Part shown: positions 16,309 to 63,969 of the stretch, piece after piece
How the letters are laid out: each line of letters begins with the position of its first letter
Numbering within the stretch: position 1 is the stretch's first letter
Assembly: GCF_000420165.1 (NCBI RefSeq)
Contig: NZ_ATUK01000014.1
Location: forward strand, 144,001 to 208,000
Length of the DNA stretch: 64,000 bases
Source of the DNA: Thioalkalivibrio sp. AKL19
GTDB lineage: Bacteria; Pseudomonadota; Gammaproteobacteria; Ectothiorhodospirales; Ectothiorhodospiraceae
Reading direction: 5' to 3'
The notes under the pieces: model-generated
Told to the model about the DNA's origin: nothing
What the model saw: the letters and a program-made list of their open reading frames with translations, nothing else
Databases searched by the model: none
Position numbers and translations under genes: made by a program

Positions 16309-16389
16309 CATCCGGCTGAGGAGCGCTGCAGCGGTTCCACCGTCAGGCTCAGCCGGATGCTCCCCTGAAACGTGAACACGGCGCTCATC
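16309..16389 (+). ncRNA. S-adenosylhomocysteine (SAH) riboswitch
   Basis: A perfect 12-base outer stem (16309-16320 with 16348-16359) closes the conserved core GAGGAGCGCTGCAGCGG...CGTCAGGCTC. The loop sequence GAGCGC (16321-16326) can form a pseudoknot with GCGCTC (16381-16386) downstream. This architecture and the core match the SAH aptamer known upstream of ahcY in proteobacteria, where SAH binding turns expression on. It sits in the leader of ahcY, 23 bases before its start. Confidence 0.93.
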
Positions 16390-16412
16390 CAGATAGACGG
16401 AGAAGTTAATCC

Positions 16413-61399: not shown

Positions 61400-62077
61400 A
61401 TGATCCACCTGCAACGCGTCACCAAGCGGTTCGGCAGCGCGGGAGAGGCGCTCAGCAACGTCAGCCTGCGCGTCGACCCGGGCGCGATGGCCTTCATCAC
61501 CGGCCCCTCGGGCGCCGGAAAGAGCACGCTGCTGCGCCTGATCGCCGGGCTGGAACGCCCCACCCGCGGCCGCATCCGCGTCAACGGCCACGACCTCGAC
61601 CGGCTCTCCAACCGCGCCATCCCCGGGTTTCGCCGCAGCATCGGGCTGGTGTTCCAGGACCACCGCCTGCTGTTCGACCGCCCGGTGTTCGACAACGTCG
61701 CCCTGCCGCTGGAAATTCTCGCCTACCGCCGCCCGGAAATGCGCAAGCGCGTGCGCGCCGCACTGGACAAGGTGGGCCTGCTGCACAAGGAGACGGTCAA
61801 CCCGCGCACCCTGTCCGCGGGGGAGCAACAGCGCGTCGGGATTGCCCGCGCCATCGTCCATCGCCCGGTGCTGCTGCTGGCGGACGAGCCCACCGGGAAC
61901 CTCGACCCGGCGCTGTCGCGCGAGATCCTGCAACTGTTCGACGACTTCAACCGGGTCGGCATGACCGCCCTGATCGCCAGCCATGACCTCGGGCTGGTCG
62001 AGCGGATGGGCAAGCCGGTCCTGCACCTGGAGGACGGGCGCGTCGAAGCGCGGGCGGCCGGCGAGGGCACGGCATGA
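61400..62077 (+). CDS. ftsE: cell-division ATP-binding protein FtsE
   Basis: ABC ATPase partner of FtsX that controls septal peptidoglycan hydrolases. The 225-residue protein has Walker A GPSGAGKST near residue 36, the signature LSAGEQQRVGIARA near 136 and Walker B LLLADEPTGNLD near 158. The ATG at 61400 is 10 bases after ftsY. The stop overlaps ftsX by ATGA. Confidence 0.95.
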   Translation: MIHLQRVTKRFGSAGEALSNVSLRVDPGAMAFITGPSGAGKSTLLRLIAGLERPTRGRIRVNGHDLDRLSNRAIPGFRRSIGLVFQDHRLLFDRPVFDNVALPLEILAYRRPEMRKRVRAALDKVGLLHKETVNPRTLSAGEQQRVGIARAIVHRPVLLLADEPTGNLDPALSREILQLFDDFNRVGMTALIASHDLGLVERMGKPVLHLEDGRVEARAAGEGTA

Positions 62078-63003
62078 AGCCCGCGCGGCGCATGCTGGAT
62101 GTCGTCCCGGCCTGGCTGGAGGCCCACCGGGATGCCGGCCGGCGCAGCCTCCAGCGGCGCATGCAGGCCCCGGTCCTGAGCCTGATCAGCATCGCCGTGC
62201 TGGGCTTTATCCTCGCCCTGCCGGCCTACCTCTGGGTCCTGCTGGACAACGCCCGCGCCCTGTCCGCCCACGTGGACCACGACCCGCGCATCGCCCTCTA
62301 CCTCGACGGCGTGGAGGCGGCCACGGTTGCGGATCTGGAACGCCACCTGGAGACCGATGCGCGGGTGGAACGCTGGACCTGGATCGATGCGGATGACGCC
62401 CTGGCCACCTACCGCGAGGGAATGAGCGATCCGGGCCTGCTGGACTGGCTGGACGAGAACCCGCTGCCGGACGTGGTCGACGTCGTGCCCGCCACGGCCG
62501 ACCCGGACACGGTGGCGGCGCTGCGCGAGGCGCTCGCGGCGACCGCCCCGGACGCGACCGTAGTCAGCGACGACGAGTGGGTCCGCCAACTGAACAGCCT
62601 GCATCAACTGGGGCTGCGCATCCTGGCGGTGGTCGGCGCGTTGCTGGGCCTGGGAGCACTGCTGATCCTGGCCCTGGCGACCGCCTCGGAGCTGCGCGAG
62701 CGCCGGGAGGAAATCGCGATCTCGCGCATCAGCGGGGCCACCCACCGTTTCCTGCGCCGGCCTTCCCTCTACGGGGGCCTGATCACCGGCCTTGGCGGCG
62801 GGATCTTCGCCGGCATCCTGCTGCTGATCGGGATCGGGCTGAGCCGGGCGCCCCTGGAACAGGCCGCCGCGGCCTTCGATCTCGAATTCGCGCTCGGACT
62901 CCCCGGGGCCAGCCACCTCCTGACCCTGCTGCTGGCCGGGCTCCTCCTTGGCTGGCTGGGGGCGCGGCTGGGCAGCGGCCATGCCCTGCGCGATGCGCCG
63001 TAA
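62074..63003 (+). CDS. ftsX: cell-division permease-like protein FtsX
   Basis: A 309-residue membrane protein with TM1 near residues 34-55, a periplasmic loop (about 56-175) that engages hydrolase activators such as EnvC, then three helices near 188-212, 235-258 and 280-302. ELRERREEIAISRISGATHRF in the cytoplasmic loop near 208-228 is the coupling element to FtsE. It ends 42 bases before the CIRCE site of rpoH. Confidence 0.93.
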   Translation: MKPARRMLDVVPAWLEAHRDAGRRSLQRRMQAPVLSLISIAVLGFILALPAYLWVLLDNARALSAHVDHDPRIALYLDGVEAATVADLERHLETDARVERWTWIDADDALATYREGMSDPGLLDWLDENPLPDVVDVVPATADPDTVAALREALAATAPDATVVSDDEWVRQLNSLHQLGLRILAVVGALLGLGALLILALATASELRERREEIAISRISGATHRFLRRPSLYGGLITGLGGGIFAGILLLIGIGLSRAPLEQAAAAFDLEFALGLPGASHLLTLLLAGLLLGWLGARLGSGHALRDAP

Positions 63004-63045
63004 GGAGGCTCGGGCTGGCAAAAACGGCCGGAACTTTTGCAGGGT

Positions 63046-63072
63046 TTAGCACTCTTATCCACAGACTGCTAA
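63046..63072. promoter_or_regulatory. CIRCE-like (HrcA) operator at rpoH, spacer is a DnaA box
   Basis: TTAGCACTC (63046-63054), nine bases, GACTGCTAA (63064-63072). The consensus CIRCE is TTAGCACTC-N9-GAGTGCTAA: the left half and spacing are exact and the right half has one mismatch. The nine-base spacer TTATCCACA (63055-63063) is a perfect DnaA box. The site overlaps the likely promoter, so HrcA binding should repress rpoH. Confidence 0.75.
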
Positions 63073-63075
63073 TCT
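63046..63075 (+). promoter_or_regulatory. candidate rpoH promoter
   Basis: TTAGCA (63046-63051), an 18-base spacer and TAATCT (63070-63075) place the start of transcription near 63082, about 24 bases before the chosen start codon. Both boxes lie in the CIRCE-like site. Confidence 0.5.
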
Positions 63076-63105
63076 AGAGTAATGAACCCGGAGGTATCAC
63101 CACGC

Positions 63106-63969
63106 ATGACCCAAGCCCTGACCACCCCGCGCATCGACATGCCCGTACCGGTGGGCGACCTCGATCACTACATGCAGGCCGTTGGCCGCATCGAGGTACT
63201 GGACGTCGAACAGGAACGCGAACTGGCCGTGGCGCTGCACGAGCGCCAGGACCTGGACGCCGCGCGCCAGCTGATCCTGCATAACCTGCGCTTCGTGATC
63301 CACGTCGCGCGCGGCTACCAGGGTTATGGCCTGCCGCTGGGTGACCTGATCCAGGAGGGCAACGTGGGCCTGATGAAGGCCGTGCGCCGCTTTGATCCGA
63401 ATCAGGGCGTGCGCCTGGTGTCCTTCGCGGTGCACTGGATCCGCGCCGAGATCCACGAATTCATCCTGCGCAACTGGCGCATCGTGAAGGTCGCGACCAC
63501 GAAGGCCCAGCGCAAGCTGTTCTTCAACCTGCGCAGCGCCAAACAGCGCCTGGGCTGGCTGTCGAACGCCGAGGTCTCCGCCGTCGCGCAGGACCTGGGT
63601 GTCTCGGAGAAGGACGTCTGGGAGATGGAACGTCGCCTGTCGAGCCAGGATGCGAGCTTCGACCCGGGCCCGGAGGCCGACGACGAGGGCTACCAGTCCC
63701 CGTCCGAGCGCCTGAGCCTGGAGGACCTGAGTGACGACCCGGCGCACGTGACCGAGGACGAGGACTGGGACCGCCACTACCAGGAACGCCTGAGCCAGAC
63801 CCTGGGCGAACTCGACGAGCGCGCCCGCACCATCCTGATGCGCCGCTACATGGCGGACCAGAAGGCCACGCTGCACGAGCTGGCCGCGGAATACGGCGTC
63901 TCGGCCGAACGGATCCGCCAGATCGAGAACAACGCGATCAAACGCATCCGGGCAGCCTTCGACGACTGA
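63106..63969 (+). CDS. rpoH: RNA polymerase sigma-32 (heat-shock) factor
   Basis: Heat-shock sigma factor of 287 residues. Region 2 reads NLRFVIHVARGYQGYGLPLGD near residue 52 in part, DLIQEGNVGLMKAVRRF near 76 and VHWIRAEIHEFILRNWR near 104; the RpoH box QRKLFFNLR, diagnostic for sigma-32, is near 131; region 4 ends with SAERIRQIENNAIKRI. The ATG at 63106 has GGAGGT upstream and matches the E. coli N-terminus; an ATG at 63082 would add eight residues and falls at the predicted transcription start. Confidence 0.95.
   Translation: MTQALTTPRIDMPVPVGDLDHYMQAVGRIEVLDVEQERELAVALHERQDLDAARQLILHNLRFVIHVARGYQGYGLPLGDLIQEGNVGLMKAVRRFDPNQGVRLVSFAVHWIRAEIHEFILRNWRIVKVATTKAQRKLFFNLRSAKQRLGWLSNAEVSAVAQDLGVSEKDVWEMERRLSSQDASFDPGPEADDEGYQSPSERLSLEDLSDDPAHVTEDEDWDRHYQERLSQTLGELDERARTILMRRYMADQKATLHELAAEYGVSAERIRQIENNAIKRIRAAFDD

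Follow-up and report, generated by a model that had tools for sequence, protein, structure and literature searches.

The standard picture of rpoH control derives from Escherichia coli, in which rpoH follows ftsX, as it does at the locus described here. The E. coli rpoH promoter P3 is RpoE-dependent and is the promoter through which RpoE was found, GGAACTT being the RpoE −35 box (PMC8103513). DnaA also acts at the E. coli rpoH region, where it was enriched 4-fold in ChIP-seq (PMC11317965), and it represses rpoH (PMC8203912). In Geobacter sulfurreducens, CIRCE, the HrcA operator, was predicted upstream of rpoH in 2004, with a consensus copy at −51 from the gene and further copies at groESL and at hrcA-grpE-dnaK (PMC545781, including Table 8).

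We analyzed a window of 64,000 nucleotides from the sulfur-oxidizing bacterium Thioalkalivibrio sp. AKL19, whose closest named relative, judged by RpoH, is Thioalkalivibrio sp. ALE14 (99%), and focused on the interval between an ftsX-like gene and rpoH, which holds the following features.

62074..63003, + strand: ftsX-like gene, upstream (best match TIGR00439, 206 bits, below the cut-off of 255)
63030..63036, + strand: GGAACTT, predicted sigma-E (RpoE) type −35; GAAC at −15/−16 from CIRCE in 45/46 family and 60/95 class sites
63046..63054, + strand: left CIRCE arm TTAGCACTC, identical to the consensus; the same in 46/46 family sites
63053..63057, + strand: TCTTA, predicted sigma-E type −10, 16 bases past the −35; its A is spacer base 3
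63055..63063, + strand: CIRCE spacer TTATCCACA, whose letters are those of a DnaA box; not conserved
63064..63072, + strand: right CIRCE arm GACTGCTAA, one base off the consensus; the same arm in 22/46 family sites, the consensus arm in 18
63067..63075, + strand: TGCTAATCT, possible extended −10 (main sigma factor), beginning within the right arm; T at +3
63090..63094, + strand: GGAGG, likely rpoH ribosome-binding site, read from the sequence
63106..63969, + strand: rpoH (sigma-32), 287 aa, ATG at 63106 (TIGR02392, 384 bits, cut-off 323)

A further ATG in the rpoH frame (63082–63084, 24 bases upstream of the start) has no obvious ribosome site by eye. Elsewhere in the window, an ordinary SAH riboswitch lies at 16312–16393 on the + strand (Rfam RF01057, 55.4 bits, gathering threshold 37), and the ORF 3′ of it, from about 16413, reads by eye like adenosylhomocysteinase.

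As the initial annotation had stated, positions 63046–63072 of the ftsX-rpoH gap read directly as TTAGCACTC, the spacer, and GACTGCTAA, a CIRCE with one mismatch to the consensus used (TTAGCACTC-N9-GAGTGCTAA, few mismatches allowed). This is the sole match at up to three mismatches within the window, and none of 100 dinucleotide shuffles gave one. Across the genome (2.88 Mb in 18 contigs), the same threshold returned two sites, one before rpoH and the other before groESL, and a reversed-pattern control returned none. The genome also carries hrcA in one copy (TIGR00331, 328 bits, cut-off 197), downstream of which lie ORFs that read by eye as grpE and dnaK. For the family, 47 genomes were searched with RpoH, and one of them (G031, 58% complete, with a weaker sigma-factor match only) was left out; at all 46 loci retained, a CIRCE with zero to two mismatches is found 29 to 87 bases upstream of the estimated rpoH start. 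The shuffles, the genome count, and the family conservation rule out a chance palindrome, and the site is a real one, predicted to be an HrcA operator over the rpoH promoter. The annotation had named the absence of hrcA, or half-sites not conserved together in relatives, as grounds against its reading; neither was found, and the further CIRCE it had suggested looking for is the one at groESL.

In the six family sites that carry neither GACTGCTAA nor the consensus GAGTGCTAA, the right arm takes other forms. A C at base 3 of the right arm co-occurs with an A as the last spacer base (last spacer base/arm base 3 in the 46 sites: A/C 23, C/G 13, T/G 4, A/G 2, A/T 2, C/C 1, and G/C 1). The arm GACTGCTAA was found in several genera, and groESL sites in Thioalkalivibrio often have GGGTGCTAA there. 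Among the eight closest genomes, the arms are nearly static, with 0.06 parsimony changes per column, and the spacer undergoes 2.1 changes per column versus 1.13 at 98 fourfold sites; the arms are thus kept and the spacer is free, as befits a CIRCE operator.

The arrangement extends well beyond this family. We looked for RpoH and HrcA in 143 genomes sampled across the class and found HrcA in 101 of them. The rpoH upstream region was read for 129 of these genomes (130 loci); the 14 left out, nine of which carry hrcA, comprised 11 without a clear RpoH as best match, one with no match, one cut by a contig end, and one split. A CIRCE with up to three mismatches lies upstream of rpoH in 86/92 hrcA-bearing versus 9/37 hrcA-lacking class genomes; the second rpoH copy of one genome (G078) has none. 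By eye, two of the six hrcA-bearing exceptions look like variants, one with the right arm only (G083) and the other with an 8-base spacer (G158). Completeness of the nine hrcA-lacking genomes that have the site is 62 to 85% in four and 97 to 99% in five. Among 80 named genomes, some of which are probably the same as genomes counted in the other sets, 38 have both hrcA and CIRCE, two hrcA only (both Nitrococcus), three CIRCE only (all three MAGs), and 37 neither; the last group includes Halomonas, Pseudomonas, Endozoicomonas, Marinobacter, and SAR92, as well as one genome (L094) with only 43 bases of upstream sequence. Fisher tests of hrcA against CIRCE at rpoH gave 5.6e-15 for the class and 1.5e-16 for the named genomes, raw values that overstate independence because the tree of the 80 named genomes holds only six independent pairs, of which four agree, none oppose, and two show no difference (p = 0.125). 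In Nitrococcus (L091 and L123), hrcA is present, rpoH has no CIRCE, and a GGAACTT-TC pattern lies at about −118. At another locus (L219, in G123), where hrcA was not detected, the CIRCE seems by eye to be short of one right-arm base, and GAACTT, a TC-type −10, and TGCTAAAAT are retained upstream of rpoH, as if the promoter had outlived the operator. A CIRCE over the rpoH promoter is thus common to many related bacteria rather than peculiar to one strain. The mismatch in the right arm and the hrcA-lacking genomes that retain the site would suit a relic, an operator without present importance in this lineage, but the contrast between near-static arms and a fast-changing spacer makes that reading extremely improbable.

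The spacer invites a different proposal, that DnaA and HrcA compete for one site and so tie rpoH to replication. The letters of the DnaA box are present at 63055–63063, as the initial annotation had pointed out in presenting the box as a design element. The exact sequence TTATCCACA occurs ten times in the genome, against one copy of a reversed control; the E. coli rpoH region, where DnaA binds and represses, also contains it; one relative (G023) has the spacer TTATTCACA; and, by eye, taking the most frequent base at each spacer position among the eight closest genomes gives the box. Set against this, the closest relative (G017, 97% rpoH DNA identity) has the spacer ctatcaata, the spacer as a whole changes faster than fourfold sites, and within it bases 3 and 9 alone are unchanged among the eight closest genomes. 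We surveyed 253 stretches upstream of rpoH, each at most 150 bases long and drawn from 46 family, 80 named, and 127 further class genomes: the exact box occurs in one, that of AKL19, and the looser TTWTNCACA in six, versus a mean of 3.3 expected from 50 Markov resamplings, the largest of which gave nine. Neither conservation of the box in relatives nor its enrichment at rpoH was therefore found in these sets. The E. coli box, moreover, lies by eye between the −35 and the −10 and not over the −10, and DnaA prefers closely spaced pairs according to the E. coli work cited above (PMC11317965 or PMC8203912). Spacer conservation, box enrichment at rpoH, and the local tree all reject a conserved DnaA-HrcA switch, and competition at this one site is improbable; the box looks like a local coincidence, a transient state of a fast-changing spacer.

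The annotation had also placed the operator over a plausible −35/−10 pair. A scan of 62900–63200 for consensus sigma-70 promoters (−35/−10 hexamers 16 to 18 apart) returned no sites, and such a promoter under the CIRCE at rpoH was rejected on that ground; the part of the claim that survives is a conserved promoter signature, and it is sigma-E-like. The −10 element of sigma-E promoters takes a TC-type form. At 63030–63057, GGAACTT and TCTTA stand about 16 bases apart, as the −35 and −10 of a sigma-E promoter do, and the −10 straddles the boundary between the left CIRCE arm and the spacer, with TC in the former and TTA in the latter. The resulting signature, GGAACTT-N16-TCNNA, keeps a conserved fixed register with CIRCE, and its −10 takes the last two left-arm bases. 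Relative to CIRCE, the first base of GAAC is at −15 in 51 of the 95 class sites and at −16 in nine, against a background of 77 occurrences in 25,196 upstream positions, and it is present in 35/41 named sites. An A at spacer base 3 is found in 39/46 family, 68/95 class, and 35/41 named sites, and a T at the third base past CIRCE in 46/46, 85/95, and 40/41, respectively. The sigma-E pattern matches the whole genome three times, including 63030–63057 (reversed control, none); one of the other two overlaps a stop codon of an upstream gene and is probably due to chance. A looser form of the pattern lies upstream of rpoH in 18/39 named genomes without CIRCE, as a raw count. RpoE itself is encoded in the genome above the curated cut-off (TIGR02939, 311 bits, cut-off 236); by eye, rpoE is followed by two ORFs resembling RseA and RseB, a nadB-like ORF diverges from it, and GAACTT-N16-TCCAT precedes it.

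The right arm continues as TGCTAANNT, which resembles an extended −10 and could possibly serve by itself as one for the main sigma factor. Because the consensus scan found no sigma-70 promoter, we offer this second rpoH promoter as a suggestion. One could go further and propose that the operator at rpoH belongs to HrcA but that the GGAAC block is used by a different ECF sigma factor or by some regulator, with the main sigma factor transcribing from the extended −10 alone. The conservation of TGCTAANNT, including the T at +3, speaks for this, as does the absence of GAAC from −16 to −8 in 31/95 class sites, 27 of them in hrcA-bearing genomes. We nevertheless find it unlikely, given that the E. 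coli rpoH P3 region (GAACTT-N16-TCTGA in K-12) shares the GGAACTT-N16-TC geometry, which recurs upstream of the strain's own rpoE, and that the sigma-70 scan was empty.

The signature also sets rpoH apart from the other target of the operator. In 27 family groESL CIRCE sites, GAAC is absent from −16 to −14, spacer base 3 is never A, and the +3 base is never T (0/27 each). The operator is the same as at rpoH, with a right arm that is likewise often one base off; however, the groESL sites are preceded by a TTGAC/TATTA-like promoter, whereas the rpoH sites are preceded by the sigma-E-type signature. A CIRCE-like site with five mismatches lies directly upstream of hrcA (L001, 1141–1167) and perhaps provides weak self-control. 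Upstream of grpE, CTTGAAA-N12-CCCCCA can be read by eye, a pattern that resembles the sigma-32 promoter form and suggests that dnaK is under sigma-32 control. If dnaK follows sigma-32, HrcA would control groESL directly, and its effect on the rest would pass largely through rpoH.

Taken together, these observations make it probable that the HrcA operator lies over a sigma-E promoter of rpoH and that HrcA blocks this promoter, perhaps along with one that the main sigma factor uses. The sigma-E −10 would combine the final two left-arm bases with the first spacer bases, and the right arm with the next three bases may form the second, extended −10 promoter. Bound to its operator, HrcA would cover both −10 elements and block both promoters. 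In other bacteria, HrcA leaves its operator upon heat or when chaperones are overloaded; here, its release would allow rpoH transcription, which would be strongest when sigma-E has been freed by envelope stress, and the sigma-32 made would then drive its own regulon. HrcA binding, repression, the transcription starts, and a joint HrcA/sigma-E gate are what we infer from the sequence. The palindrome might instead act at the RNA level, folding into a stem-loop of the rpoH transcript, CIRCE having been discussed as an mRNA element in other systems. We regard this as very improbable: because the −10 lies over the left arm, transcription would start near 63064, leaving the left arm upstream of the predicted start and untranscribed, and the presence of CIRCE tracks hrcA.

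The proposed HrcA-repressed sigma-E promoter retains from the initial annotation the presence of hrcA, the CIRCE at groESL, and the co-conserved arms; it drops the DnaA box and adds the sigma-E-type promoter that the annotation had missed. A broader proposal, to which we give an even chance, is that the common and possibly ancestral rpoH control in hrcA-bearing Gammaproteobacteria is a fused operator-promoter, fully on only when chaperone overload and envelope stress coincide, and that E. coli P3 is its remnant after the loss of hrcA. To our knowledge, E. coli has no HrcA, and in control searches with the HrcA family, which matched 7/14 genomes, E. coli was not among the matches. If HrcA and sigma-E share the rpoH control site in many Gammaproteobacteria, two classic heat-shock circuits would be stacked and not alternative, and the layout would directly predict how cytosolic and envelope stress combine at one promoter.

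Unlike the locus described here, E. coli rpoH has no CIRCE. G. sulfurreducens has one but belongs to the delta-proteobacteria, and the portion of its description available to us does not mention an overlap with a sigma-E promoter (PMC545781). In our literature search, we recognized no report of HrcA at rpoH in Gammaproteobacteria or of the sigma-E overlap, although the 2003 survey by Permina and Gelfand of regulons in the beta, gamma, and epsilon groups may already cover part of this. As far as these sources extend, a CIRCE at rpoH had already been predicted for G. sulfurreducens, and what seems to be new is its overlap with a sigma-E-type promoter and its breadth across Gammaproteobacteria.
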